Origin: Afifella marina DSM 2698
Lineage (GTDB): Bacteria; Pseudomonadota; Alphaproteobacteria; Rhizobiales; Afifellaceae
Assembly: GCF_900102695.1 (NCBI RefSeq)
Contig: NZ_FMVW01000001.1
Coordinates: 248,001-312,000, forward strand
Reading direction: 5' to 3'
Length of the DNA stretch: 64,000 nt
Shown: positions 49,735 through 64,000 of the stretch, piece after piece
Position numbering within the stretch: position 1 is the stretch's first letter
Layout of the letters: each line of letters opens with the position of its first letter
The notes under the pieces: generated by a model
What the model was told of the DNA's origin: nothing
The model's database searches: none
What the model saw: the letters and a program-made list of their open reading frames with translations, nothing else
Position numbers and translations under genes: made by a program

Positions 49735-50487
49735 TTATTGATCGGGTGATGATTGGCGCCAGTCGCCGGCTGCGGCCTGAACGAGCGCAAGGGCTGCGAC
49801 GGCCGCGGTATCGGCGCGCAGAATGCGCGGTCCGAGCGAGATCGTCAGCGTCTGCGGTCTGGCCGAAATCGCACTCCGCTCGGCGTCCGAAAACCCGCCC
49901 TCCGGCCCAATGAGAAGCGCAAGCCTCTCGCCCTTGAGGTCGGCAAGCGCTGCAAGCGGATCGCCCTCGTGGCGCTCGTCGCAGAAGATCAGCCGGCGGT
50001 CTTGTTCCAGCGCCTCGATCGCCTCCGCCAGGCCTTTCGCCTCCTCCACCTCCGGCAGATTGAGGATGCCGCATTGTTCGGCGGCTTCCAGCGCATTGGC
50101 GGCGATGCGCGCCGTCTTGACCTGCCGCACCTGCGTGAACTGCGTGATCACCGGCACGAGCCGGCCGACGCCCATCTCCACGGCCTTCTGCGCCAGGTAA
50201 TCGAGCCGCGCCTGTTTGAGCGGCGCGAAGAGATAGGTGAGGTCGCTTTGCGGCGTTTGCGGCCGCGTCTGCTCCTCTACCTCGAGATGGGCCTTCTTCT
50301 TGCCCTCCTTGACGACCTTCGAACGCCATTCCCCGTCTTTTCCGTTGAAGAGAAGCATGGGCGCCCCGTTGTCGAGGCGCAGAACGTTGAGGAGATAATT
50401 GGCCTGATCGGCCGTGAGGGGGATCGAGCCACCGGCTTGGAGCGGCTCTTCGACGAAAAGTCGCTTCGTGATGAAATCGTAGGCCAT
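49735..50487 (-). CDS. rsmE: 16S rRNA (uracil1498-N3)-methyltransferase
   Basis: A 250-residue SPOUT-class methyltransferase that modifies U1498 of 16S rRNA. An N-terminal PUA-like part begins RLFVEEPLQAGGSIPL; the C-terminal knot has the conserved IGPEGGFSDAE and LGPRILRADTAAVAAL segments that bind S-adenosylmethionine. Convergent with the small secreted protein gene and divergent from xseA, 68 bp away. Confidence 0.95.
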   Translation of the reverse strand: MAYDFITKRLFVEEPLQAGGSIPLTADQANYLLNVLRLDNGAPMLLFNGKDGEWRSKVVKEGKKKAHLEVEEQTRPQTPQSDLTYLFAPLKQARLDYLAQKAVEMGVGRLVPVITQFTQVRQVKTARIAANALEAAEQCGILNLPEVEEAKGLAEAIEALEQDRRLIFCDERHEGDPLAALADLKGERLALLIGPEGGFSDAERSAISARPQTLTISLGPRILRADTAAVAALALVQAAAGDWRQSSPDQ

Positions 50488-50555
50488 GTTCGCTCTCTTG
50501 CCGTTCTTTCGAAAACGCGCTTGAAGCGCGGCTCTCGCTCCGTCAAGACTGGGTT

Positions 50556-52163
50556 ATGCCCGCATCCCCCGTCGAAGTCTCCAACGTCGCCGAATATACG
50601 GTCGCCGATCTCGCTTTCGCCCTGAAGCGAACGCTTGAGGAAAATTACGAGCATGTGCGGGTGCGCGGCGAGGTTTCCGGTTACCGTGGCCCGCACGGCT
50701 CGGGCCATTGCTATTTCACGCTCAAGGATCAAAGCGCCTCTCTCGACGTCGTCGTCTGGCGCACGACCTTCCAGCGGCTGAAGTTCAAGCCGGAGGAAGG
50801 CTTGGAGATGGTGGCGACCGGCAAGATCACCACCTATCCGCGCCGCTCCAATTACCAGCTCGTGGTCGAGAGCCTGGAGCCCGCCGGTGCCGGCGCGCTG
50901 ATGGCGCTTCTGGAGGAGCGCAGGAAGGCGCTCGCCGCCGAAGGGCTTTTCGACGAGGCGAAGAAGCGCCCGCTCCCCTATCTGCCGGAGGTGATCGGCG
51001 TCGTCACCTCGCCAACGGGCGCCGTGATCCGCGATATCCTGCATCGTCTGCGGGAGCGCTTTCCGCGCCGGGTGCTGGTCTGGCCGGTGCGTGTTCAGGG
51101 CGAGGGTGCGGCCGAGGAAGTGGCGGCCGCTGTCCGCGGCTTCAACCGCACCGAAAAGGGCGGCGCGGTTCCGCGCCCGGATCTCTTGATCGTCGCCCGA
51201 GGTGGCGGCTCGATCGAGGATCTGTGGGCCTTCAACGAGGAAGTTGCTGTGCGGGCCGTCGCTGAGAGCGGCATTCCGGTGATTTCCGCCGTCGGCCATG
51301 AGACCGACTGGACGCTCATCGATCTCGCCGCCGACCGGCGCGCCCCGACGCCGACGGGTGCGGCCGAGATCGCCGTGCCCGTGCGTGCCGAACTCGTCGC
51401 CTGTGTCGCCGATTTCACAGCCCGCCAGGAAGGCGCCTGGCAGCGCCTCGCAGCTTCCCTCAGGCGTGATCTGACGGGTGCTGCCCGCGCCATGCCTTCG
51501 CTCAACGAGCTCCTGGCTCTGCCGCGCCACCGGCTCGACGAGGCGGGCGGCCGGCTGCTGCGCGGGCTCGCCCAGCATCGCCGCTTCAAGGAGCAGGCCT
51601 ATCTGCGTGTCGGGGCGCGGTTGACGGGCGACAGCCTGCGCGCCGATCTGCGCCGTCGGCGCGAGCGCCTGGCTGATCTGTCAGGCCGCATGGAGCGCTC
51701 GGCGAGTGCCGTTCGTGGCTCCGCGCGGCGCGATCTCATACGTGCAGCCAGGCTGCGCCCGGAAACGCTCCAGCGCATGCTGCGGGTGGAGCGGGAGCGG
51801 CTCGCAGCGACCGCACGCCACGCCGAGGTGTTTCGGCGCGCCGCGATCGCGCGCCAGGAGCGCTACGACAATGCCTGCCGGCTGCTTGAGACGCTCTCCT
51901 ACAAATCCGTTCTCGGACGCGGCTATGCCGTCATCCATGACGCCTCCGGTCAGACGGTGACGCGGGCCGGCGCGATGCGGACGGGCGACGCCTACGAGAT
52001 AGAGTTTCAGGATGGGCGTCGCCCGGTCGTTGCTGGTGAGGGTGGCACACCGACGCCCGCGACGGGGAGCCCATCCGAGAGCCCGCCGAGCGAGAAGCCG
52101 GCGGCAGCGAGGAAACCGGCGAAGGCGAAGCCCGCTCCCAAGGCGCAGGGCAGCCTCTTTTAG
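50556..52163 (+). CDS. xseA: Exodeoxyribonuclease VII large subunit
   Basis: A 535-residue nuclease subunit. An OB-fold (about 10-110, VRGEVSGYRGPHGSGHCYFT) precedes the catalytic region with VVTSPTGAVIRDI, RGGGSIEDLWAFNEE and SAVGHETDWTLIDLAADRRA, all characteristic, followed by the coiled-coil part and an Ala/Pro/Lys-rich C-terminal tail (about 490-535) ending in QGSLF. Degrades single-stranded DNA with XseB, which is not in the window. Confidence 0.95.
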   Translation: MPASPVEVSNVAEYTVADLAFALKRTLEENYEHVRVRGEVSGYRGPHGSGHCYFTLKDQSASLDVVVWRTTFQRLKFKPEEGLEMVATGKITTYPRRSNYQLVVESLEPAGAGALMALLEERRKALAAEGLFDEAKKRPLPYLPEVIGVVTSPTGAVIRDILHRLRERFPRRVLVWPVRVQGEGAAEEVAAAVRGFNRTEKGGAVPRPDLLIVARGGGSIEDLWAFNEEVAVRAVAESGIPVISAVGHETDWTLIDLAADRRAPTPTGAAEIAVPVRAELVACVADFTARQEGAWQRLAASLRRDLTGAARAMPSLNELLALPRHRLDEAGGRLLRGLAQHRRFKEQAYLRVGARLTGDSLRADLRRRRERLADLSGRMERSASAVRGSARRDLIRAARLRPETLQRMLRVERERLAATARHAEVFRRAAIARQERYDNACRLLETLSYKSVLGRGYAVIHDASGQTVTRAGAMRTGDAYEIEFQDGRRPVVAGEGGTPTPATGSPSESPPSEKPAAARKPAKAKPAPKAQGSLF

Positions 52164-52270
52164 GCCGCGACATGTGAGGCGACGGGCCGCGCGGCCGGAA
52201 CCGATCGGCCGCGGCGCCATTTTAGCCGTGAAACGAGCCGCAACATCCCGCGGCGAACCTCCCGAGACCC

Positions 52271-52837
52271 ATGCGCTTCTTCCTCGTTCTTGTCGTCATC
52301 CTGCTCGCCGTCGCCGCCTATTTCATGGTCGACATCCGCCAGACACAGGAAGGCCGGATGCCTTCCGTGCAGGTCGAAGAAGGCCAGGCGCCGAAATACG
52401 AGTTCAATCTCGGCGGCTTCGAGCTCGTCTGGAAAAAGGCGACGTTCTCTTATCCGACCATTCGCTTCCGTTCACCGGAAGAAAGTGACACGACGCCGGC
52501 CCCGGAGCCGGCCTCGGAGCCAGAGGGCGAGGAGAAGGCACCTACGACTTCTCCGGAGACGTCTCCTCAGACAAAAGCGCCGTCCTCGACCGAACCGGAC
52601 ACCGCGCCTCCCGCCTCTCCGGCGCCATCGCAGACCATGCCGGCTCCATCCGAGACTTCGCCGGAGAGCCCTGCGAACGGCTCCATCGAGCCGCTGCCGG
52701 TTCCGGGCGATCTCGACATGCGCCCCGATACGAGCGAGCCTCGTGACAGGCAGGGGGAGCCCGAAAGCTCACAGCCCGACCGGAATCCCGGCGAGCCGGA
52801 GCCCGCCGAAATCATCAATCCCGACGTCTCGCGATAA
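52271..52837 (+). CDS. Membrane-anchored Pro/Glu/Ser-rich protein
   Basis: A 188-residue protein with one N-terminal helix (about 2-20, FFLVLVVILLAVAAYFMV), a short folded-looking stretch (about 30-72) and a long Pro/Ser/Thr/Glu-rich disordered tail. No known domain. Located 107 bp after xseA on the same strand. Probably an inner-membrane protein with a periplasmic or cytosolic low-complexity tail; the composition suggests an extended spacer. Coding status is supported by the clear ATG, codon-like third-position bias and the membrane anchor. Confidence 0.6.
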   Translation: MRFFLVLVVILLAVAAYFMVDIRQTQEGRMPSVQVEEGQAPKYEFNLGGFELVWKKATFSYPTIRFRSPEESDTTPAPEPASEPEGEEKAPTTSPETSPQTKAPSSTEPDTAPPASPAPSQTMPAPSETSPESPANGSIEPLPVPGDLDMRPDTSEPRDRQGEPESSQPDRNPGEPEPAEIINPDVSR

Positions 52838-52846
52838 GACGGACGC

Positions 52847-53524
52847 TCAGGCGTCTTCGACGATGAGGATGTGGAGGGCGCGCGGCCCGTGGGCGCCGAG
52901 AAGCAGCGTCTGCTCGATATCGGCCGAGCGTGACGGGCCGGTGATGAGATTGACCGTGCGTGGCAGGACGTCGTCGCCGGAGTGTTCCCGCAGACGGTTC
53001 CACAGGGTTTCGTAATCGCCGACGATGTCGGAGGCGCGCACCACGACGACATGGTGATCCGGCAGGAAATTGAGCGTCGTCGGATTGTCGGGCCCCGAGA
53101 GCAGGAAGAGCGTGCCGGTTTCCGCCGCGCCGCCGAAAGCGTGGCTGAGGCCGACATGATCGCGCCCGTCGGAGGGCCCGTGTTTCACTTCGAGCTGCGG
53201 GACCTTTTCCCAGGGAAGATCGGCAAGACGCCGGTCCGCACCCATCCTGAGATCCGAGGGCAGGTTGCGGGCGCGCAGATATTCCGCAACCGTCTCAGGA
53301 AGGTCGGAGGCCGAGGCCACCCGCTCCACCGTGGCGGAGACTTTTCCCGCCATCTTCGCAAAGAGATCGAGGCGTGCCTGCTGGCCGACATGGCCACGGG
53401 CCGGAACGGTGTTTGCCGGATGCTGGCCGAGGCGCTGGGCGACGGCATCGCGGCGCGCTTCCGCTGTCTTTGCGGAGGCAAGGCCGCGCCGGATCTTGCC
53501 GAGCACGGTTTCGCGCTGGCTCAT
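52847..53524 (-). CDS. lutC: L-lactate oxidation complex subunit LutC
   Basis: A 225-residue LutC/YkgG-type (LUD domain) protein. Conserved segments include GLSHAFGGAAETGTLFLLSG and the C-terminal ADIEQTLLLGAHGPRALHIL. The frame is open far upstream, but MSQRETVLGK at 53524 is the natural start, 19 bp after lutB. Works with LutA and LutB to oxidise L-lactate to pyruvate at the membrane. Confidence 0.92.
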   Translation of the reverse strand: MSQRETVLGKIRRGLASAKTAEARRDAVAQRLGQHPANTVPARGHVGQQARLDLFAKMAGKVSATVERVASASDLPETVAEYLRARNLPSDLRMGADRRLADLPWEKVPQLEVKHGPSDGRDHVGLSHAFGGAAETGTLFLLSGPDNPTTLNFLPDHHVVVVRASDIVGDYETLWNRLREHSGDDVLPRTVNLITGPSRSADIEQTLLLGAHGPRALHILIVEDA

Positions 53525-53543
53525 GATGTCTTTCCCGTCGCCG

Positions 53544-54962
53544 TCACGAGCGGGCCTTCCACTGATCGATGAAGCTTGTTTTCGCCGGCGCCGGCATGTC
53601 GCGATGGCCGGTCCAGCCGCCGGCGAGCGGCAGCGACGAGAAGCGCCCGCGACGACGCCCGAAGGGGTGAAGCGCCTTGAGCCCGATGCGGGTGGCGAGC
53701 CGGTAGAGTTTCGGACGCCTGGCGAGAAAGGCCCAGATGCGCAGGCCGTTCCGCTCCGCGGCCGGCTTGAGATGCCGCTCATATTCGCGCTCGCGCCAAT
53801 GCCGCATCAATTTCGGCAAGGGGATCTCGACCGGGCAGACGCTCTCGCAGCGCCCGCAGAAGGTCGAGGCGTTGGGCAGGTTTGCCGTGTTTTCGAGACC
53901 GAAGAGGCCCGGAGCCAGGACCGCGCCCATGGGGCCGACATAGGTCGCGCCATAAGCGTGGCCGCCGATCGCATGATAGATCGGACAATGGTTCATGCAG
54001 GCGCCGCAGCGGATGCAGCGCAGCATCTCGCGGAACTCGTTGGCGAGCATTTCGGAGCGGCCATTGTCGAGGAGGATGACATGCGTCTCCTCGGGACCGT
54101 CCTCGTCGCCCGGCCGCCTCCGGCCGGTGGAGAACGTCGTGTAGACGGAGAGCTCCTGACCCGTGGCGGAGCGTGCCAGAACCCGCAGCAACGTCGAGAC
54201 GTCTTCGAGCGTCGGCACTACCTTTTCGATCGAGGCGAGCACGATATGCACCCGCGGCAGGATCTGCGTGAGGTCGCCATTGCCCTCATTGGTGACGATG
54301 ACGGAGCTTCCCGTCTCCGCCACCAGAAAGTTGGCGCCGGTGATGCCGACATCGGCGGCAAGGAACATGTCGCGCAAAGTGGCGCGCGCCTCCGAGAGCA
54401 GCGACACCGGATCGGCGAGATCGCGCTTCGGATCGAGATGCGTGTGCACGCGGCGGAAATCGGCTTCCACCTGGTCGCGGTTCACATGCACGGCGGGGGC
54501 GATGATGTGGGAAGGCGGCTCGCCGCGCAGCTGAATGATGTATTCGCCGAGATCGGTCTCGATCGGCTTGATCTCGCTCTTCTCCAGGAAGGCGTTGAGG
54601 CCGATCTCCTCGGAGATCATCGATTTGCCCTTGGTGACGGTTTTGGCGCCAACCCGGCGGCAGATCGAAAGCACGGCCTCGCGCGCGTCGGCTGCCGTCT
54701 CCGCCCAATGCACCTCCGCCCCGGCCTGGCGCGCTTTGCCCTCGAAAGCCTCCAGATAGAGGTCGAGATGTGAAAGTGTGTGGTCCTTGATGGCGCGCGC
54801 TTCATGGCGCAGCGCATCGAATTCCGGCAGGGCGTCGACCGCCTTCTGGCGCTTCTGGATGAAGCCGCGTTCCACATGCCCGAGCGCGCGCTGCAGCTCG
54901 ACATTGGCGAGTGCGTCGACGGCGTTTTCCTTGAACGCCTGCGAAAGGAAGGGCGCGCTCAT
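53544..54962 (-). CDS. lutB: L-lactate oxidation iron-sulfur subunit LutB
   Basis: A 472-residue LutB/YkgF protein: an N-terminal LUD-type region (with TKGKSMISEEIGLNAFLE and GITGANFLVAETGS) and a two-cluster ferredoxin domain with Cys315-Cys318-Cys321-Cys325 (CIRCGACMNHCP) and Cys369-Cys372-Cys376 (CGRCESVCP). The start overlaps the lutA stop by four bases. Carries electrons in L-lactate oxidation. Confidence 0.94.
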   Translation of the reverse strand: MSAPFLSQAFKENAVDALANVELQRALGHVERGFIQKRQKAVDALPEFDALRHEARAIKDHTLSHLDLYLEAFEGKARQAGAEVHWAETAADAREAVLSICRRVGAKTVTKGKSMISEEIGLNAFLEKSEIKPIETDLGEYIIQLRGEPPSHIIAPAVHVNRDQVEADFRRVHTHLDPKRDLADPVSLLSEARATLRDMFLAADVGITGANFLVAETGSSVIVTNEGNGDLTQILPRVHIVLASIEKVVPTLEDVSTLLRVLARSATGQELSVYTTFSTGRRRPGDEDGPEETHVILLDNGRSEMLANEFREMLRCIRCGACMNHCPIYHAIGGHAYGATYVGPMGAVLAPGLFGLENTANLPNASTFCGRCESVCPVEIPLPKLMRHWREREYERHLKPAAERNGLRIWAFLARRPKLYRLATRIGLKALHPFGRRRGRFSSLPLAGGWTGHRDMPAPAKTSFIDQWKARS

Positions 54963-55780
54963 TCCGCCTCGCCGATCGCCGGACTGTCGGCCATGCCGGC
55001 GAGCACTTCGGCTACATGGCGCGCATGCACATGCTTGCCCTCGCGCTGCAGCTTGCCGGCCATGTTCATGAGGCAGCCGAGATCGCCGGCCACCAGCGTA
55101 TCGGCTTCGGAGCCTGCGATTGCGGCCGTCTTTTTCGTCACGATGGCGTTGGAGATTTCCGGATATTTGACGCAGAAGGTACCGCCGAAGCCGCAGCAGA
55201 CATCGGCGTCCTTGAGCTCGGTGAAGGCGAGGCCGTCGACGGTTTTCAAGAGTTCGCGTGGCTGGTCGCGCACATTGAGTTCGCGCAGGCCCGAACAGGC
55301 GTCGTGATAGGTGACGTTGCCGGCAAACGCCGCCTCGACGTCGCGCACGCCCATCACGTCATAGAGGAAGGCTGTAAGCTCGTAGGTCTTTGCGGAGAGC
55401 GCCATTGCGCGCCGCGCCCAATAGGCGTCGTCGAAAAGCTCCGGATAATGGCGGGCGATCATCGCGGCGCAGGAGCCGGACGGAACCACCACGTAATCGT
55501 AGTCTTCGAAGATCGCGATCACCTGTTTGGCGATGGCCGCAGCATCGCTGCGGTCGCCGGAATTGTAGGCGGGCTGGCCGCAGCAGGTCTGGTTCTCCGG
55601 GACTTCGACGCAGCAGCCGGAAGCTTCGATCAGCTTGATCGCAGCAAAGCCGACTTGCGGGCGGAAGAGATCGACGAGGCAGGTGGCGAAGAGACCGACG
55701 CGCGGCTTCGAAGCTGTCGTATGTTCGGTGTTTTCTGGCGACAAGCGCTCAATCCTCTGCGGCCGAGCGTTGTGCGTCAT
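54959..55780 (-). CDS. lutA: L-lactate oxidation subunit LutA (CCG domains)
   Basis: A 273-residue LutA/YkgE protein with two cysteine-rich CCG domains (ENQTCCGQPAYNSGD and DVCCGFGGTFCVKYPE), typical of the heterodisulfide-reductase-like cluster-binding subunit. An N-terminal stretch of about 24 residues precedes the conserved RVGLFATCLVDLFRP. First gene of lutABC, all overlapping or closely spaced. Confidence 0.93.
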   Translation of the reverse strand: MTHNARPQRIERLSPENTEHTTASKPRVGLFATCLVDLFRPQVGFAAIKLIEASGCCVEVPENQTCCGQPAYNSGDRSDAAAIAKQVIAIFEDYDYVVVPSGSCAAMIARHYPELFDDAYWARRAMALSAKTYELTAFLYDVMGVRDVEAAFAGNVTYHDACSGLRELNVRDQPRELLKTVDGLAFTELKDADVCCGFGGTFCVKYPEISNAIVTKKTAAIAGSEADTLVAGDLGCLMNMAGKLQREGKHVHARHVAEVLAGMADSPAIGEAE

Positions 55781-56063
55781 GCCCTCGGCTGGCTTCGATG
55801 GCTCCAGGTCTGGCGGCAGGGCCGGTCAGCCGGAAGCCCGGACACGCAAATTAGGTCCGCCGCCGCAGCGAGATCAACAACCTTGTGGCGCAGGCTTCTG
55901 GCGCTGGACGTGCAGGCTTGTGGTGACCGCACGGGCTTTGCGGATGCGCCCTGAGACGGAAAAGCCGCAAAATCCCAGCGTGCCGATACGCGTGCCAGGC
56001 GCGTCGAGCCGCAAAAAGATAAAGCCGCTGCGCGGAATGCAGCGCGAGCGAAAACGGACCGCG

Positions 56064-56094
56064 AAAAAATCCCGCCGCCCTTTCGAGCGGCGGG
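56064..56094 (-). terminator. Intrinsic terminator of the cytochrome c gene
   Basis: Perfect 8-bp stem CCCGCCGC/GCGGCGGG with an 8-base loop, followed on the minus strand by ATTTTTTCG. It lies 28 bp beyond the cytochrome c stop. The 280 bp from here to lutA (55781-56063) show no gene. Confidence 0.85.
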
Positions 56095-56121
56095 TCGTCA
56101 CGAAAAGGCGCTTGCGCCCGA

Positions 56122-56559
56122 TTAGCCGTTGGGCGGCGTGTACGTGCTGGCGTCCGGATCCGGCATACCGTCCGTATCGAACGTCTTCAGATAGGCAATC
56201 ACCGCGTCGATGTCTTCGGGCTTCTTGAGGCCGGCGAAGATCATCTTGGTCTTCGGCACATAAGCGCGCGGGTTCTTCAGATACTCGTGCAGGGACTTTT
56301 CGGTCCAGACGAGACCATTCTCGCCGGCGCTCTTCATGGCGTCGGAATAGCGGAAGTCAGGCAGAGAACCGGCGACACGACCGAACAGGTTGTTCTGCTC
56401 GGGGCCGACGCGGTTTTTGGCGCCTTCACCGACCGAATGGCAGGCGTGGCACTGCTTGTAGACCTTCTCACCGGCCGCGACGAGGTCGTCCTGAGCATAC
56501 GCACTGCCCGCGGCAAGGATGGCAGCAATGCCAAGGGCAGCAGCCGAAATCCTAATCAT
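56122..56559 (-). CDS. Class I cytochrome c
   Basis: A 145-residue periplasmic cytochrome c. Signal peptide ends near YAQ (residue 23). The heme motif is CHACH at 37-41 and the axial Met is Met106 in KTKMIFAG; helices and spacing fit mitochondrial-type cytochrome c2/c550. Sits between lutABC and glcDEF, so it could accept electrons from those dehydrogenases, but it is also a general carrier. Own terminator downstream. Confidence 0.95.
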   Translation of the reverse strand: MIRISAAALGIAAILAAGSAYAQDDLVAAGEKVYKQCHACHSVGEGAKNRVGPEQNNLFGRVAGSLPDFRYSDAMKSAGENGLVWTEKSLHEYLKNPRAYVPKTKMIFAGLKKPEDIDAVIAYLKTFDTDGMPDPDASTYTPPNG

Positions 56560-56753
56560 TGGACACTCCTTGTTATGTCAAAGCTTGACTCATTCCAAGG
56601 TGGCGGAATGGAGCACAGGGCTTCGCGCCACACAAGGGGGAGGATTTTCTGGTTTGGCAATGCGACATCGCGCTATGGTTGCTTGAGATGAAACGCTGAA
56701 CGATAATCGGCGGGCCTCGCAAGAAGGCCAAGACAAAAGAGCAGGGAGGCTCA

Positions 56754-58247
56754 ATGAGTGTGGCGATGCCCGGCCCGAAGGCCGAGATTCTGGCGCGCCG
56801 GGGGGAGATCGCCAAGGCTCTCTCTGCCATCGTTCCGGGCGAGGGGGTCATCACGGATCCTGATGGCATGCGGCCATTCGAGACAGATGGTCTCACCGCC
56901 TATCGTCAATTGCCGATGATTGTCGTCCTGCCGGAGACGGTCGAGCAGGTGCAGCGCGTGCTGCGCTATTGCTACGACAATGAGATCCGCGTCGTGCCGC
57001 GCGGTTCCGGCACCTCGCTCTCTGGCGGCGCCCTGCCGCTTGCGGACGGCGTTCTTCTCGTCATGTCGAGGTTCAACAAGGTTCTCGAGGTCGATTTCGA
57101 AAACCGTGCGACCGTCGTGCAGCCGGGCGTCACCAATCTCGCCGTCACCAGGGCGGTCGAGCATCGCGGTTTCTATTATGCCCCCGACCCATCCTCACAG
57201 ATCGCCTGTTCCATCGGCGGCAATGTCGCGGAAAATTCCGGCGGCGTGCATTGTCTGAAATATGGGCTGACCACGAACAACGTGCTCGGGCTGGAGATGG
57301 TGCTGATCACCGGCGAGGTCATTCGGCTCGGGGGCAAGCATCTCGACAGCGAGGGCTATGATTTCCTCGGCCTGATGACGGGCTCTGAGGGGCTTCTCGG
57401 TGTCGTGACCGAGGTGACGGTCCGAATTCTGCGCTCGCCGGAGACGGCACGGGCGCTTCTCGTCGGCTTTCCGACGAACGAGGATGCCGGGCGCTGCGTC
57501 GGCGACATCATCGGCGCCGGCATCATTCCGGGCGGCATGGAGATGATGGACAGCCTGGCGATCCAGGCGGCGGAAGATTTCGTCCATGCGGGCTATCCCC
57601 TCGACGTCGAGGCGCTCCTGATCGTCGAGCTCGACGGCCCGGGCGAGGAGGTGCACGAGCTGATCGAGCGGGTCGAGGCGATCGCGCGCGACAACAATGC
57701 CGCCAATATCCGCGTTTCGCAGTCCGAAGAGGAGCGCGCCAATTTCTGGGCGGGACGCAAGGCGGCGTTTCCCGCCGTCGGCCGCATCTCGCCGGATTAT
57801 TACTGCATGGACGGCACGATCCCGCGCAAAGCCCTTCCGAAGGTTCTGCACCGCATGAAGGAGATGGAGACGGAGTTCGATCTGCGGGTCGCCAATGTCT
57901 TCCATGCCGGCGACGGCAATCTCCATCCGCTCATTCTCTATGACGCCAACGATACCGATCAGCTGGAACGGGCCGAGGCGTTCGGCTCGGCGATCCTGAA
58001 GCTCTGCGTGGAGGTGGGCGGCGTTCTGACCGGCGAGCACGGCGTCGGCGTGGAAAAGCGCGACCTCATGGGCGAGATGTTCAGCGAGGACGATCTCGCT
58101 CAGCAGGAGCGGGTGAAATGCGCTTTCGATGCCCGTCAGCTCCTCAATCCCGGCAAGGTGTTCCCGGAGCTGCACCAATGCGCCGAGCTCAGCCGCATGC
58201 ATGTGCATAAGGGCCAGCTTCCCTTCCCCGACATTCCCCGCTTCTGA
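56754..58247 (+). CDS. glcD: Glycolate oxidase FAD-linked subunit GlcD
   Basis: A 497-residue flavoprotein of the FAD-linked oxidase (PCMH-type) family. FAD-binding stretch VVPRGSGTSLSGGALPLADG, then SSQIACSIGGNVAENSGGVH, and the C-terminal FHAGDGNLHPLILYD and LTGEHGVGVEKRDLM motifs. Oxidises glycolate (also D-lactate) to glyoxylate, passing electrons on through GlcE/GlcF to the respiratory chain. First gene of the glc operon, 14 bp before glcE. Confidence 0.95.
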   Translation: MSVAMPGPKAEILARRGEIAKALSAIVPGEGVITDPDGMRPFETDGLTAYRQLPMIVVLPETVEQVQRVLRYCYDNEIRVVPRGSGTSLSGGALPLADGVLLVMSRFNKVLEVDFENRATVVQPGVTNLAVTRAVEHRGFYYAPDPSSQIACSIGGNVAENSGGVHCLKYGLTTNNVLGLEMVLITGEVIRLGGKHLDSEGYDFLGLMTGSEGLLGVVTEVTVRILRSPETARALLVGFPTNEDAGRCVGDIIGAGIIPGGMEMMDSLAIQAAEDFVHAGYPLDVEALLIVELDGPGEEVHELIERVEAIARDNNAANIRVSQSEEERANFWAGRKAAFPAVGRISPDYYCMDGTIPRKALPKVLHRMKEMETEFDLRVANVFHAGDGNLHPLILYDANDTDQLERAEAFGSAILKLCVEVGGVLTGEHGVGVEKRDLMGEMFSEDDLAQQERVKCAFDARQLLNPGKVFPELHQCAELSRMHVHKGQLPFPDIPRF

Positions 58248-58261
58248 GATTTTCCCGCCCC

Positions 58262-59461
58262 ATGGCCGAAACGCTTCGCCCCGAGACTGCCGAATCCGTG
58301 CTCGATGTCGTCCGCTGGGCGGCCGCCGAACAGGTGCCGCTCGAAATCCTGGGACACGGGTCCAAGCGCGGCATCGGCCGCCCGGTTCAGGCGGAATACA
58401 CGCTCAATCTCTCCGCTTTGTCCGGTGTCACCCTGTACGAGCCGGACGAACTCGTCTTCTCCGCCAAGGCCGGCACGCCGCTTGCCGAAATCGAAAAGCT
58501 CCTGGCGGATGCCAATCAGGAACTCGCCTTCGAGCCGATGGATTACGGCCCGATTTTCGGGTTGGAGCCCGGGACGGGAACGCTGGGCGGTGTGCTCGCG
58601 GCCAATCTCGCCGGTCCGCGCCGCATCAAGGCGGGCGCTGCCCGCGACCATATTCTCGGGCTGTCGGCCGTCTCGGGCCGCGGCGAGGCCTTCAAGGCGG
58701 GCGGGCGCGTGGTCAAGAACGTCACCGGCTACGATCTCTCCAAGGGGCTTGCCGGTTCCTGGGGCACGCTCGCGGTCGTCACCGATCTCACTTTCAAAGT
58801 GCTGCCACGGCCGGAGCGCATCGCCACCGTGCTCGTCCTCGGCCTCTCAGATGAGGCTGCCTGCGCTGCGATGGCCGAAGCCATGGGCTCTTCGCACGAA
58901 GTCTCGGGCGCGGCGCATCTGCCGAAAGGGATGGCGCGGTCCTGTGGTCTTGCCGTCGAAAGCTCCGTGACCGCGCTCAGGCTGGAAGGCTTTCCCTCCT
59001 CCGTTTCCTATCGCAGCGAAGCGCTCAACGGCATGATGCGGGACCGCGGCGCGGTGGAGATCCTCGACATGCCGCAATCGGAAAACTTCTGGCGCGCCAT
59101 CCGCGATTGCCTGCCCTTTGCCGGCCGCAGCGATCCGCTCTGGCGCGTCAGCATTGCACCGCGCGCCGGCGCCGCGCTGATGGCGAGGCTCGCGAACGAG
59201 CCTCTCAACTATTTTTTCGATTGGGCCGGCGGCCGAGTCTGGATCGAGGTCACGGGCAGCGCGGAAGACGCTGCCGAAGGCGCCATCCGGCGGGCGATCA
59301 GGGCGGTCGGCGGCGGCCATGCGACGCTCATCCGCGGCTCGGCGGCCTTGCGCACCGGCCTCTCGCCCTTCGAACCGCAGCCGGCCCCGCTCGCCGCCTT
59401 GTCGCGGCGGCTGAAAGAGAATTTCGATCCGCAGGGGATATTGAATCCCGGGAGAATTTAG
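58262..59461 (+). CDS. glcE: Glycolate oxidase subunit GlcE
   Basis: A 399-residue FAD-binding subunit. Typical stretches: EQVPLEILGHGSKRGIGRP, GTLGGVLAANLAGPRRIKAG, GGRVVKNVTGYDLSKGLAGS and the C-terminal LKENFDPQGILNPGRI. It partners GlcD and GlcF. Its stop (TAG at 59459) is followed by a short G-rich stretch and then the AT-rich foreign gene instead of glcF. Confidence 0.95.
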   Translation: MAETLRPETAESVLDVVRWAAAEQVPLEILGHGSKRGIGRPVQAEYTLNLSALSGVTLYEPDELVFSAKAGTPLAEIEKLLADANQELAFEPMDYGPIFGLEPGTGTLGGVLAANLAGPRRIKAGAARDHILGLSAVSGRGEAFKAGGRVVKNVTGYDLSKGLAGSWGTLAVVTDLTFKVLPRPERIATVLVLGLSDEAACAAMAEAMGSSHEVSGAAHLPKGMARSCGLAVESSVTALRLEGFPSSVSYRSEALNGMMRDRGAVEILDMPQSENFWRAIRDCLPFAGRSDPLWRVSIAPRAGAALMARLANEPLNYFFDWAGGRVWIEVTGSAEDAAEGAIRRAIRAVGGGHATLIRGSAALRTGLSPFEPQPAPLAALSRRLKENFDPQGILNPGRI

Positions 59462-59470
59462 GACGGGGAG

Positions 59471-60097
59471 ATGGACGACGAGGATGTGATTTACGCACGC
59501 GTGGGCGAGTCAGTCATTCAAGGCATGAAAGAAGCCAATAGAGATTATGAGCACTTGTCTTCAGAATGGGTTCATGAGCGTGGGGTTGAGTCTTTTGTTT
59601 CTGCTTACGTTTCTCAGTGGCTAAGGAAGAAAAGAAGTCTGGGTGTTCGCAGGGTTTTAATAGAAGCAACAATAGCTGAGCTGAAGGAAAAATGCGCAAA
59701 TTTTGAAGCAGACTCAGGGTATTTTTGGGAGAATTTACACGGAGGAAAAAGGATAGACATTGTTTGCATTGGAGATAATAATGATGCGATAGGTGTTGTA
59801 GAATTGAAGAGAAATAAAATTTATTCTGAGTGGGCAAGCGACATTGAGCGAGTGAAAACTCTCGCGGGGCGAGTGAGATGTGTCGATTTTGGTACGTTCG
59901 GCGCGTTCGTCGGATTTAGGGAGGGGGAGGATGTGGCTGACGAAGCATATAAGTTTATAAGAAAACAGTCGGAGTGCCTCTCGGGCGCCAAAAGCCTTTC
60001 AGTTCTGCCTTTCAGATATAATTCCCGTTGGAAGGAGTATTCGGACGCTCTTTGGAGGTACTCGATTGTTGGATGTACCTTCTACAAGCCGACTTAA
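59471..60097 (+). CDS. PD-(D/E)XK nuclease-like orphan gene inserted between glcE and glcF
   Basis: A 208-residue cytosolic protein not recognised by name. Its core, GGKRIDIVCIGDNNDAIGVV followed by ELKRN, has Asp96 and Glu111-x-Lys113 in the spacing of a PD-(D/E)XK nuclease, with helices on either side and a Trp/Arg-rich C-terminus. The DNA is strikingly AT-rich (about 40% G+C by eye against 65% around it) and uses AGA, ATA and TTA codons that neighbours avoid. It interrupts glcDEF; its TAA overlaps the glcF ATG (TAATG). Start ATG 59471 has GGGGAG one base away, so a nearby GTG may be used instead. Recent acquisition is inferred; a defence or repair role is a guess. Confidence 0.8.
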   Translation: MDDEDVIYARVGESVIQGMKEANRDYEHLSSEWVHERGVESFVSAYVSQWLRKKRSLGVRRVLIEATIAELKEKCANFEADSGYFWENLHGGKRIDIVCIGDNNDAIGVVELKRNKIYSEWASDIERVKTLAGRVRCVDFGTFGAFVGFREGEDVADEAYKFIRKQSECLSGAKSLSVLPFRYNSRWKEYSDALWRYSIVGCTFYKPT

Positions 60098-61470
60098 TGC
60101 AAACCTCCTTCACCCTTCAGCAGCTCGCCGACCCGCGCATCGAGGAAGCCGATGCCATTCTGCGCAAATGCGTGCATTGCGGCTTCTGCCTCGCCACCTG
60201 CCCGACCTATGTCGAACTCGGCAACGAGCTCGATAGTCCGCGCGGGCGCATCTATCTCATCAAGGATATGCTGGAGGCGGAGAAGCCGGCGACGGCGGAG
60301 GTCGCGCTCCATATCGATCGTTGTCTCTCCTGCTTTTCCTGCATGACGACCTGTCCGTCCGGGGTCGATTACATGCACCTCCTCGATCAGGGGCGGCGGC
60401 ATATCGAAGAGACCTATCGCAGGCCCTGGCACGACCGGGCGCTGCGGGCGGTTCTGGCGCATGTCATGCCTTATCCGGCGAGGATGCGGGCAGCCCTCGT
60501 CACCGCCCGATACGGCCGGCCTCTGGCGCCGTTGCTCGCCCGCATGGGGCGGCCATTCGACCGGCTTGCCATGATGCTGCGCCTGGCGCCCAAGCGGCTG
60601 CCGGCGAAAATCCAGGCATCCGAGACGGGTCACGCCTTTCCGGCCCATGGCGCCAGAAAAGGCCGCGTGGCGCTTTTGACGGGCTGCGCGCAATCGGTGC
60701 TCGATCCGGGCATCAACGCCGCCACGATCCGGCTCCTCACCCGCCTCGGCATCGAAGTCGTGCTGCCGAAGGGCGAGGGCTGCTGTGGCGGGCTCGTCCA
60801 CCATATGGGGCAGGACGAGAAGGCGCTGCCGATGGCGCGCAACAATATCGACGCCTGGCTGCGCGAGATCGACGGCGAGGGGCTCGATGCGATCCTGGTG
60901 ACAACGTCGGGCTGCGGCACGACGATCAAGGATTACGCACATCTCTTGAAGGGGGAGCCCACCTATCGCGAGAAGGCGGAGCGCGTGTCGGCGCTTGCCC
61001 TCGACATCAGCGAATATCTCGCTCGTCTCGATCTGCCCGCACCCCGCCGCCGAACCGGCCTCAAGGTCGCCTACCACGCCGCCTGCTCGCTTCAGCATGG
61101 CCAGAAGGTGGTGAAAGAGCCGCGCACGCTCCTGGCGGAGGCGGGATTTGAGGTGCTGGGCATCCCCGAAGGCCATCTCTGCTGCGGCTCGGCCGGCACC
61201 TACAACATTCTGGAGCCGGAGATCGCGGCGAGGCTGCGCGACCGCAAGACGGCGAATATCGAAAGCGTTGCGCCGGAGGTGGTGGCGACCGGCAATATCG
61301 GCTGCATCACGCAGATCGGCTCGGCGATGGAGATCCCGGTCCTCCATACCGTCGAACTCCTCGATTGGGCGCATGGTGGCCCGCCGCCGGAAGCCTTTGC
61401 CGGGCACGCGCTGGAACCAACGCGGAGCAAAGCCGCTTCGTCTTCTGAAAGGCCGCTTCGCGTCTCCTGA
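60097..61470 (+). CDS. glcF: Glycolate oxidase iron-sulfur subunit GlcF
   Basis: A 457-residue protein with two 4Fe-4S sites, Cys25-Cys28-Cys31-Cys35 (CVHCGFCLATCP) and Cys76-Cys79-Cys82-Cys86 (CLSCFSCMTTCP), then two CCG domains (GEGCCGGLVHHMG and HLCCGSAGTYN). Starts at MQTSFTLQQLADPR; the frame opens upstream at 60028 but that is within the foreign gene. The A of its ATG is the last base of that gene's stop, so translation is likely coupled to it. Confidence 0.95.
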   Translation: MQTSFTLQQLADPRIEEADAILRKCVHCGFCLATCPTYVELGNELDSPRGRIYLIKDMLEAEKPATAEVALHIDRCLSCFSCMTTCPSGVDYMHLLDQGRRHIEETYRRPWHDRALRAVLAHVMPYPARMRAALVTARYGRPLAPLLARMGRPFDRLAMMLRLAPKRLPAKIQASETGHAFPAHGARKGRVALLTGCAQSVLDPGINAATIRLLTRLGIEVVLPKGEGCCGGLVHHMGQDEKALPMARNNIDAWLREIDGEGLDAILVTTSGCGTTIKDYAHLLKGEPTYREKAERVSALALDISEYLARLDLPAPRRRTGLKVAYHAACSLQHGQKVVKEPRTLLAEAGFEVLGIPEGHLCCGSAGTYNILEPEIAARLRDRKTANIESVAPEVVATGNIGCITQIGSAMEIPVLHTVELLDWAHGGPPPEAFAGHALEPTRSKAASSSERPLRVS

Positions 61471-61492
61471 CGGCGGTCGCAAGGAGGGCGCA

Positions 61493-62020
61493 ATGACGTT
61501 CCACCGAAAAGCCGCGGGCGCCACGCTTGCTCTCGGTCTCGTGCTCGCTCTGCCGCTTCTGCCGACAGGGGCAGCCCATGGGCAGGGCGCGCCGACGCAG
61601 CCGGATGCGAGCGGTCCGGGGCAGGACATGCCCGCGCCGACGCGTCCCGAACAAGCCGTGCCGGAAGCTCTGCCTTCCCCGAAAAGTGAGACGAACGATC
61701 CCGAGCGGGCGATGAGCCTGCTCATGCGGCTGACCGGCCGCTGGGCGCCGACCGACGAGAGCTGTCAGGCGCAGGACGGCGCCGACGTGCCTTTGCGCAT
61801 CGAGCGGGGCGGCCTGAAGGATGGAGGCCGCTCCTGCCGGTTCCTCGATCTTAGAAGTCCCTCCGAGGATCGTCTCGACGTGACGGCGGCCTGCGGCGAA
61901 GCGGAGGGGGCGGAGAGTTCCGAGGAATTCGGGCTTGAGCTCGATGAGACGGGAGCGCTGACCCTGACGCGTCCCGACGGCGAGACGACACGCTTTTTCC
62001 GCTGTCTCGACGAGGCCTAG
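61493..62020 (+). CDS. Small secreted Pro-rich protein of unknown function
   Basis: A 175-residue exported protein. Signal peptide to about residue 30, a Pro/Gln/Ala-rich linker (30-65), then a small domain with three cysteines (in ESCQAQDG, GRSCRFLD and TAACGEAE) and a fourth near the end (FFRCLDE), possibly two disulfides. AAGGAGG precedes the ATG. It follows glcF by 22 bp on the same strand and may be co-transcribed. No family recognised. Confidence 0.7.
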   Translation: MTFHRKAAGATLALGLVLALPLLPTGAAHGQGAPTQPDASGPGQDMPAPTRPEQAVPEALPSPKSETNDPERAMSLLMRLTGRWAPTDESCQAQDGADVPLRIERGGLKDGGRSCRFLDLRSPSEDRLDVTAACGEAEGAESSEEFGLELDETGALTLTRPDGETTRFFRCLDEA

Positions 62021-62149
62021 CCGCCGCGTCGCCGCGTGGGAGCCCTGCATCCCTCTGCCGGCTGATATGTGCCGCGAAACCAAAGGAAGCCTGGGCCCGT
62101 TCCCCGAGTGAATTCCATGAACACTCGGCGGAAGGGAGGAAGCATCCCG

Positions 62150-62947
62150 ATGGATCTTCAAATCTCAGATCGTGTCGCCCTGATCACCGGCGCACGTGGC
62201 GGCATCGGCTTTGAAACGGCGCGGCTCCTGGCGGAGGAGGGCGCGAAACTCGTGCTTTCCGACCTTCGCATCGACACGCTCGAAGAGGAGGCGAAGCGCC
62301 TGCCGACCGACGTGTTGTGCATGGCAGCCGACGTCACCGACCAGAAGGCCGTGGATGCGGTTGCCGCCGCCGGGCGCGAGCGCTTCGGCAGGATCGATAT
62401 CGTCGTGCATGCCGCAGGCGTGACGGGGGCCAAGGGTGATCCCATCGACATGAGCGATGAGGATTACCGGGAGGCCTGGGACATCGATTTCATGTCGGCG
62501 GTGCGCATGGCGCGGGCGACGTTGCCCGGCATGCGCGAAGCGAAATGGGGGCGCTTCATCTGCGTGACCTCGGAAAACGCCGTGCAGCCCTATTGGGAAG
62601 AAGCCACGTACAACGCCGCGAAGGCCGCGCTTTCCGCATTCGTCAAGAACATCTCCTATCGGGAGGCGAAGAACGGCATCCTCTGCAACACCGTCGCGCC
62701 CGCCTTCATCGAGACGCCGATGACCGACGGCATGATGAAGCAGCGTGCCGAGAAGCTCGGCGTCTCTTTCGAGGACGCGATCCAGAGCTTCCTCGATGAA
62801 GAACGGCCAGGGATTGCCTTGAAACGGCGCGGGCAGGCTTCGGAGGTGGCCGCGGCCATCGCGCTTCTTGCCTCCGAGCGCGGCTCCTTCATCAACGGCT
62901 CGAACCTGCGCGTCGACGGCGGTTCGGTGCAATCCGTGCAGACGTGA
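62150..62947 (+). CDS. Short-chain dehydrogenase/reductase
   Basis: A 265-residue classical SDR. Cofactor motif TGARGGIG (about 14-21), DVTD for the adenine ring, VVHAAGV, catalytic Ser (VTSENAVQPY) and YNAAK with Tyr and Lys, and the C-terminal GSFINGSNLRVDGGS. A 3-oxoacyl or alcohol/sugar dehydrogenase; substrate unknown. AGGGAGG lies upstream of ATG 62150, which is chosen over the longer frame from 62069. Confidence 0.92.
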   Translation: MDLQISDRVALITGARGGIGFETARLLAEEGAKLVLSDLRIDTLEEEAKRLPTDVLCMAADVTDQKAVDAVAAAGRERFGRIDIVVHAAGVTGAKGDPIDMSDEDYREAWDIDFMSAVRMARATLPGMREAKWGRFICVTSENAVQPYWEEATYNAAKAALSAFVKNISYREAKNGILCNTVAPAFIETPMTDGMMKQRAEKLGVSFEDAIQSFLDEERPGIALKRRGQASEVAAAIALLASERGSFINGSNLRVDGGSVQSVQT

Positions 62948-62954
62948 GGCGGCG

Positions 62955-63362
62955 CTATTCGCTGCGGCTGGCGCTGTCGTGCAGCCGGCCGAGACGCTCT
63001 GCGGCCTCCGACAGGCGGCGCGACAGGAGGAGAGCTTCGCTCGAAAGATGCGCGATCTCCGTGCGCAGCATCGCCGCTTCCTGAGCCATCGGCTCTTCGT
63101 CGGCGGGCGCCACGCCGCGGCCGATCAGAAGCCACATCGGGCTGACGCCGAGGATGCCGGCGAGCATGTTGAGGCGGTTCGCCCGTGGCTCGGCGCGATC
63201 GTTTTCCCATTGCGAGAGCGTTGAGGTCTTGACGCCGAGCCGGCGGGCGAGCTGCGCCGTGGAGAGGCCGATGGCGTCACGGGCGCGGACGATGCGGCCG
63301 CCGAGCGTGTCGCCGTCATCGGCATCAAAATCGGTCGGGCTGCTTGTCGTGGCGGCTTCCAT
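62955..63362 (-). CDS. XRE-family helix-turn-helix regulator
   Basis: A 135-residue protein. The helix-turn-helix is about 22-75 (IGLSTAQLARRLGVKTSTLS and QWENDRAEPRANRLNMLA); the C-terminal part (about 90-130) is a predicted coiled coil (EAAMLRTEIAHLSSEALLL). Convergent with the SDR gene, 7 bp away, and divergent from the AI-2E-type permease. A 14-bp palindrome in the upstream gap may be its site. Confidence 0.88.
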   Translation of the reverse strand: MEAATTSSPTDFDADDGDTLGGRIVRARDAIGLSTAQLARRLGVKTSTLSQWENDRAEPRANRLNMLAGILGVSPMWLLIGRGVAPADEEPMAQEAAMLRTEIAHLSSEALLLSRRLSEAAERLGRLHDSASRSE

Positions 63363-63422
63363 GCTTAATTCCCCCAGGGACTGGCGCGGTAGAGCATGCC
63401 GGGCGGCACACTATTGATCATC

Positions 63423-63436
63423 TGATCGAACGATCA
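63423..63436. promoter_or_regulatory. Candidate XRE operator TGATCG-AA-CGATCA
   Basis: Perfect 14-bp palindrome 60 bp upstream of the XRE gene's ATG, in the gap to the divergent permease; a further TTGATCA lies eight bases before it. Position suits autoregulation. Confidence 0.4.
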
Positions 63437-63522
63437 CACGGGGCCTGCGATCGCAACGGGTGCGTAGTCGCGCGGCAGCGCTCGCGTTTTGCCCCGAATT
63501 CTCATCGTTTGGAGAAAACATA

Positions 63523-64000
63523 TTGCACGAAGACGGCAAAGAATCCACCGGCCGCATCGTCTCCCGCGCCGCGATTTTCCTCGCCGGCGTCGTGGTTCTC
63601 TTCGTTTTATGGAAGGCGACGTCGGCTCTTCTTCTGGTTTTCGCCGGTCTCGTGCTGGCCGCCGCTTTGAGCTTTGCCTCCGACGGCCTGCACCGGCTGA
63701 CGCGGTTGCCGACGCGCCTTGCGAAGATTTTCATCTATCTGGCAGCCTTCGGAGCGATCTTCGCGGTGATCGGCTGGGGCGGAGCGACGCTCGCGGCGCA
63801 GGCGAGCGATCTCCTGGCGCGGACCGATACGTTGATGCGCAATTGGGGCGATCAGCTCTCGCAGCTCGGTTTCAGCTTCATCAAGCCGAACGGCGACGTT
63901 CAGCTCTCTCAGATGATGCCGAACCTGAAGGCGATGATGGGCGATGTCGGCCGTGTCGTCAGCCTTATGTTCGGCAGCCTCGCCAACGCGGTCATCGTCG
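63523..64000 (+). CDS. AI-2E/PerM-family permease, truncated by the window end
   Basis: The first 159 codons are visible. The protein begins with several hydrophobic segments (AAIFLAGVVVLFVLWKATSA, ALLLVFAGLVLAAALSFA, IFIYLAAFGAIFAVIGWGG), then a soluble stretch (LLARTDTLMRNWGDQLSQLG) and the next helix, which fits the AI-2E transporter/PerM family. No ATG lies near the start; TTG at 63523 with GGAG eight bases upstream is taken as the start, and this is why simple ATG searches miss the gene. Divergent from the XRE regulator. Function of the family ranges from AI-2 export to Na+/H+ antiport; none is assigned. Confidence 0.8.
   Translation, partial: MHEDGKESTGRIVSRAAIFLAGVVVLFVLWKATSALLLVFAGLVLAAALSFASDGLHRLTRLPTRLAKIFIYLAAFGAIFAVIGWGGATLAAQASDLLARTDTLMRNWGDQLSQLGFSFIKPNGDVQLSQMMPNLKAMMGDVGRVVSLMFGSLANAVIV

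Follow-up and report, generated by a model that had tools for sequence, protein, structure and literature searches.

A recently inserted AT-rich gene for a PD-(D/E)XK-nuclease-like protein between glcE and glcF of Afifella marina

Introduction

How does a lone AT-rich gene come to lie inside an operon for a single protein complex, and what might its product do there? The question is raised by the glycolate-oxidation operon, whose glc products assemble into one complex, in a 64,000-nucleotide stretch of the Afifella marina DSM 2698 genome (hereafter, the window). A first-pass annotation had described a nuclease-like gene of foreign composition between glcE and glcF and had tentatively read it as a carried defence gene. 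The insertion and the foreign origin of the gene are near certain. We argue that a captured, stand-alone PD-(D/E)XK defence nuclease is the best account of it, a tentative reading to which we assign a probability of roughly 0.45.

Results

An intact open reading frame of 208 codons (positions 59471..60097 of the window, plus strand; product P0001) sits between a glcE-like gene (58262..59461, plus strand), whose 3′ end has been changed by the insertion, and a glcF-like gene (60097..61470, plus strand). Its ATG is preceded, at a distance of 7 nt, by a Shine-Dalgarno-like AGGA (59460..59463, plus strand), and its stop codon overlaps the glcF start in the sequence TAATG (60095..60099, plus strand). 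Both GC and GC3 of the gene are 0.450, while GC3 is 0.805 in glcD, 0.805 in glcE, and 0.806 in glcF. When the window was tiled (600-nt tiles over bases 1-49800, 500-nt tiles over bases 50000-63999), GC was below 0.55 in just two tiles (0.446 and 0.512), both of which overlap the inserted gene. The coordinates, the frame, the foreign-looking composition and the stop/start overlap given in the first-pass annotation were all exact. Pfam searches identified two FAD_binding_4/FAD-oxidase_C proteins upstream and one 4Fe-4S/CCG protein downstream, which fits glcD, glcE, and glcF, names that were assigned by reading. At the site of the inserted gene, Rfam gave no match, and promoter and terminator scans gave nothing informative. 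Since nothing purine-rich can be seen immediately ahead of glcF, translation of glcF is likely coupled to that of the inserted gene. A search of the same genome at E <= 1 returned a single match, the inserted gene itself.

The glcE-glcF junction was compared across a sample of 11 genomes of the family, the window's own included, ten of which contain glcE at E <= 1e-40. Each of the eight other readable junctions (L003-L008, L010, and L011; L009, which ends too soon, was left out) was empty, with glcE and glcF adjacent and at most about two dozen nt apart. In the two nearest congeners, G028 and G107, whose glcE is 96% and 95% identical, respectively, to that of the window, the glcE stop codon TGA lies 2 nt ahead of a TTG start of glcF. 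The TTG start is peculiar to these two loci (L003 and L004); ATG is used in the window genome and at six other family loci. Conservation throughout the order with host-like composition was also looked for and was not found: at E <= 0.001, the gene was present in one of 397 genomes, its own, with the GC3 given above. We therefore conclude that the insertion is recent, later than the split from G028 and G107.

Two trivial explanations can be considered against these data. A gene native to the glycolate operon whose composition had drifted would be expected within the operon and could well overlap glcF, but it is already contradicted by the eight other family junctions that lack it, and the accepted distant homologues (see below) adjoin other genes; we consider this very improbable. 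An assembly or contamination artefact would agree with presence in one assembly only. However, the gene lies inside a 1.02-Mb contig of an assembly of 24 contigs that is 99.73% complete and 0% contaminated, and the junctions leave all three genes readable, which makes an artefact scarcely credible.

Homology between the window and G028 stops at 59451 and restarts at 60098, at the beginning of glcF; thus, 19 bp of the G028 junction were replaced by 646 bp. As a result, the C-terminus of the glcE product reads NPGRI* in the window and NPGRMGS* in both congeners. Compared with G028 and G107 in 118-nt blocks, both flanking genes were 0.86-1.00 identical along the 1180 nt taken from each, values that give no hint of the flanks having been imported. 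Immediately after the left breakpoint lies a 9-bp stretch, GAGAATTTA (59452..59460, plus strand), which does not align to the junction of the relatives. Two bases of the TAG that now ends glcE come from this stretch, as does the A of the AGGA ahead of the inserted gene. Preceded by two native G's, the stretch becomes an 11-mer with an exact second copy inside the inserted gene (59727-59737). When the insert was resampled 5000 times under a Markov model, the 9-mer turned up on the plus strand in a proportion 0.0114 of the resamples and the 11-mer in 0.0004, proportions that must be read in the light of the repeat having been noticed after the fact. For this reason we take the match as a hint of templated end joining, in which GAGAATTTA may be candidate filler. 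A Ku homologue is encoded in the genome (G000:C3:148294-148788, L040; PF02735, E 3.4e-49), and the organism may therefore be capable of non-homologous end joining. An alternative left boundary is possible, with 59461-59470 being native and matching GGATGGGGAG of the relatives at 9 of 10 positions; the match is not significant (109 of 2000 shuffles were as good). The earlier description of a single gene set within the operon was borne out in its position between glcE and glcF. Its picture of an insertion without scars needs amending, since the end of glcE is altered, 19 bp are replaced, and a 9-bp stretch is repeated inside the gene.

Distant homologues were found in two other lineages of the same class, again as lone genes flush against host genes and AT-richer than their surroundings. 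The gene for P0002 (G580; GC 0.422 versus 0.708 in the flanks) starts 6 nt past the stop codon of a regulator with WYL/WCX domains (Pfam) and is adjoined on its other side by the gene of an Abhydrolase_3 protein. The gene for P0003 (G704; GC 0.522 versus 0.628) faces gyrB, the two stop codons sharing CTAG, and occupies the gap between gyrB and a transglycosylase gene (L022 1312-1956). The same gap in the congeners G516 and G619 holds another ORF (L027 2811-3398 and L028 2637-3398), which appears on reading to be unrelated and membrane-protein-like; the one such ORF that was tested had no Pfam match at E <= 0.001. The gap is thus a possible exchange spot. A GC-rich, frame-broken remnant of a family homologue was observed in G1095 (L020 690-1020). 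Family membership was judged by reading the hit loci other than L015, L016, L017, L023, and L024. Five hits were rejected as unrelated: the frame at L013 belongs to an Hsp90 protein and that at L018 to a Cas_Csy3 protein, the hit frame at L014 contains a stop codon and runs against another ORF, and L021 and L025 carry, by reading, an rRNA methylase-like and a MerR-like ORF, respectively. No homologue was found in plasmid, phage, and viral collections at the sensitivity used, and a literature search, which in effect did not extend to the PD-(D/E)XK superfamily, returned no paper on this protein family. P0001 belongs to a very rare family.

The residues that are invariant in P0001, P0002, and P0003 include W33, E40, R94, D96, I97, V98, E111, K113, D124, and R127 (P0001 numbering), a PD-(D/E)XK pattern. 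D96 and the E111-L112-K113 motif are where the first-pass annotation had placed them, and D96, E111, and K113 are conserved in the homologues; the same three residues also align in the G1271 copy described below and in the Tin protein of phage P2. An HMM built from three homologues scored P0001 at 37.7 bits, the best of 2000 shuffled sequences reaching 12.8. As in the PD-(D/E)XK superfamily, there is an R-x-D-I-V motif, an E-x-K 15 residues past the Asp, the upstream E40, and a conserved D and R beyond E-x-K. Unlike established members, the family gives profile matches that all lie under the curated cut-offs, and the 208-residue protein comes without an added ATPase, methylase, or helicase domain.

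The profile matches were as follows. In Pfam, P0001 matched DUF234 (E 0.003, 18.4 bits versus a cut-off of 22.5) and, also below cut-off, the non-nuclease profile Acetyltransf_15 (E 0.12). A 170-residue part of the G1271 copy matched HSDR_N (E 0.02, 15.2 bits versus a cut-off of 25.1), HSDR_N_2 (E 0.022), and the non-nuclease profile Band_7_C (E 0.026); P0002 matched HSDR_N_2 (E 0.12), and P0003 had no match. DUF234 (PF03008) and HSDR_N (PF04313/PF13588) are the nearest profiles of PD-(D/E)XK type. No library profile matched the family at its cut-off or at E 0.001, NCBIfam and PHROGs gave no match for P0001, and neither did a sequence search of the PDB. Antibody chains matched by P0002 in the PDB search, and a viral polyprotein matched by profile A2 (E 1.8), were taken as chance. 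AlphaFold2 (AF2) models of P0001 (pLDDT 35.3, pTM 0.27) and of the L038 homologue (pLDDT 39.1, pTM 0.29) are too poor to use. For what such models (pLDDT <40) are worth, the Asp falls in both on one strand and the Glu/Lys on its neighbour, with a helix next in order, and the core alpha-beta-beta-beta-alpha-beta order fits each in part: in the P0001 model no strand comes after the helix beyond E-x-K, and the L038 model is without the first strand. The assignment made in the first-pass annotation is upheld as to the signature, which is kept in distant homologues, and not as to profiles, none of which exceeds its cut-off; the models, given their low pLDDT, speak neither for nor against a nuclease fold. 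On balance, the inserted gene likely encodes a PD-(D/E)XK-like enzyme, with the fold and catalysis predicted from conserved residues.

The P0002 locus in G580 can be set beside its counterpart in G1271 (C61; L034/L041/L039). Synonymous divergence (dS) of the flanks is 0.14 in the WYL gene and 0.21 in the hydrolase gene. The first 70 codons of the nuclease gene are in line with this (dS 0.19), while codons 71-180 are saturated (pS 0.817, dN 0.35); codons 95-150 have pS 0.756 and dN 0.20. The agreement at the start and the saturation beyond it suggest that the start came down with the flanks and that the catalytic part was exchanged. Judged by these rates, the body of the gene appears to have been replaced by one that had diverged under constraint, and the catalytic part is under constraint in the pair. 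In G1271 the nuclease gene is preceded by about 155 bp from the 3′ end of a WYL-type regulator gene, not by the intact WYL gene, which lies about 0.8 kb from this fragment with a 247-aa ORF between; the next gene after the intact copy is another ORF. The locus is thus a rearranged one beside a mosaic nuclease gene. The WYL regulator of G580 ends five residues short of the intact G1271 copy (GHHG* versus GHHGNPPDL*), and in a relative, G461, the alignment to the G580 locus is confined to the WYL gene.

Across six loci of one genus with a close hydrolase orthologue, the nuclease gene is present at two; the four without it were examined over 1.5 kb (G673 and G1095), about 0.9 kb (G750), and 0.6 kb (G1272). 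The two filled loci can be accounted for by a 5′ part that was inherited and a body that was swapped.

This occupancy bears on whether the gene encodes a free-standing homing endonuclease, which would cut gene-less alleles at or near the glcE/glcF junction and be copied in by repair. An insertion that has the size of one ORF, carries nothing else, and separates two conserved genes would fit homing, as would a gene carried at two of six hydrolase-site loci within one genus (at glcE/glcF, one site is filled and eight were read as empty). Against this, the sites at glcE/glcF, the WYL-gene end, and the gyrB end look unrelated by eye, the flank identities to G028 and G107 contain no trace of co-conversion, and PD-(D/E)XK is a rare homing fold. 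We regard homing as unlikely. Such an enzyme would correspond, on a chromosome, to the intergenic endonucleases without promoters that are found in T4-like phages. In T4, according to one report, seven intergenic endonucleases are apparently promoter-less and are read on the transcript of their neighbours (PMC2988022), and so promoter-less cassettes of this kind exist. They share with the inserted gene the form of an ORF-sized cassette between conserved genes. They differ in being GIY-YIG or HNH enzymes and in residing in phages; for the inserted gene, a cleavage site and homing are hypothetical.

A passenger ORFan with no selected role and on its way to loss, or a PD-(D/E)XK fold serving repair or regulation, is a somewhat better candidate, if still a doubtful one. 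Occurrence in one genome with unameliorated composition would suit a passenger, and the G1095 remnant shows that family members decay. The frame is intact, however, every signature residue has been kept, the G580/G1271 pair shows constraint, and the stop and start codons are neatly fitted to the operon.

The exchange of bodies under constraint fits an arms race, and for this reason, which falls short of proof, we prefer defence: a defence nuclease is the likeliest function, though still a tentative one. With PADLOC, eight neighbours in the window (53547-63362) and two in G580 gave no defence match at E <= 0.001 beyond regulators, so guilt by association is lacking among these genes. The regulator matches were to helix-turn-helix stretches (RmrA, HTH_VI, and capH) and to WYL/Cas3c models. 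Among the regulators is a 135-aa helix-turn-helix protein encoded at 62955-63362 on the minus strand, whose N-terminal part matches RmrA and capH (best E 1.2e-10), probably through a shared DNA-binding domain only. The PADLOC WYL models that match the G580 regulator are labelled as CRISPR-associated signalling; WYL regulators can accompany defence systems, but WYL-type regulators are widespread. At P0003 and the further sites, the flanks were surveyed by reading, up to about 1.5 kb on each side, outside the PADLOC scan. Among PADLOC single-gene defence families, no model matched P0001, P0002, or P0003 significantly (best matches PDC-S11 at E 0.036, Tin at E 0.038, and PDC-S26 at E 0.021, respectively).

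The Tin match deserves comment. Tin is a single-gene exclusion protein acting on T-even phages; it is prophage-borne in P2 and, according to one paper, poisons the single-strand-binding protein of T-even phages (PMC8594841). Like the inserted gene, tin is a short single gene, and its R-x-D-I-A ... I-E-V-K stretch aligns to the family core. Comparison of the family with Tin by hhalign gave E 0.0023 (probability 12.7). The family HMM scored Tin at 7.8 bits, as did one of 2000 shuffled Tin sequences; among control frames, none of 200 from the window and one of 19 from the P2 stretch scored as high, the latter with an identical score and taken to be Tin's own frame. In contrast, BLASTP of P0002 against Tin gave E 0.076, and the HMM match is limited to about 40 residues. 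Because the Tin model was drawn from the 5027 searched, the resemblance is not significant. This sub-threshold similarity, the sole apparent link to a known defence protein, can serve as a lead only.

Discussion

Under the defence reading, a promoterless single-gene cassette for a PD-(D/E)XK-type endonuclease-like protein would have been captured at the glcE/glcF junction, probably by end joining, after the split from G028 and G107. The gene would be read with the glc operon and translated from its own ribosome site, and glcF would be translated by coupling to it. P0001 would most likely act alone through a D96/E111/K113 centre, with E40 predicted to lie on a helix before the core, and might cut or nick the nucleic acid of invaders as a small stand-alone defence nuclease.

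A more elaborate account, which we consider quite improbable, is that these are self-spreading, ORF-only PD-(D/E)XK cassettes whose nuclease would cut the DNA where a host gene ends, the coding sequence then being captured there by end joining. A stop codon and a ribosome site, both templated, would arise on capture; resident copies would keep a conserved 5′ anchor, through which new catalytic bodies would be swapped in. If true, housekeeping operons would harbour an intron-less system of homing or gene exchange on the chromosome. A homing enzyme of the simpler kind would be an unusual chromosomal one.

Whichever function applies, the locus is a clean case of a single foreign gene recently placed inside the operon of one complex. 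Its junction can be read base by base, and the newcomer has apparently taken over the translation of glcF downstream. If, as we favour, the product is a defence nuclease, such genes can move as bare ORFs away from defence islands and prophages, and searches based on islands would overlook them there.
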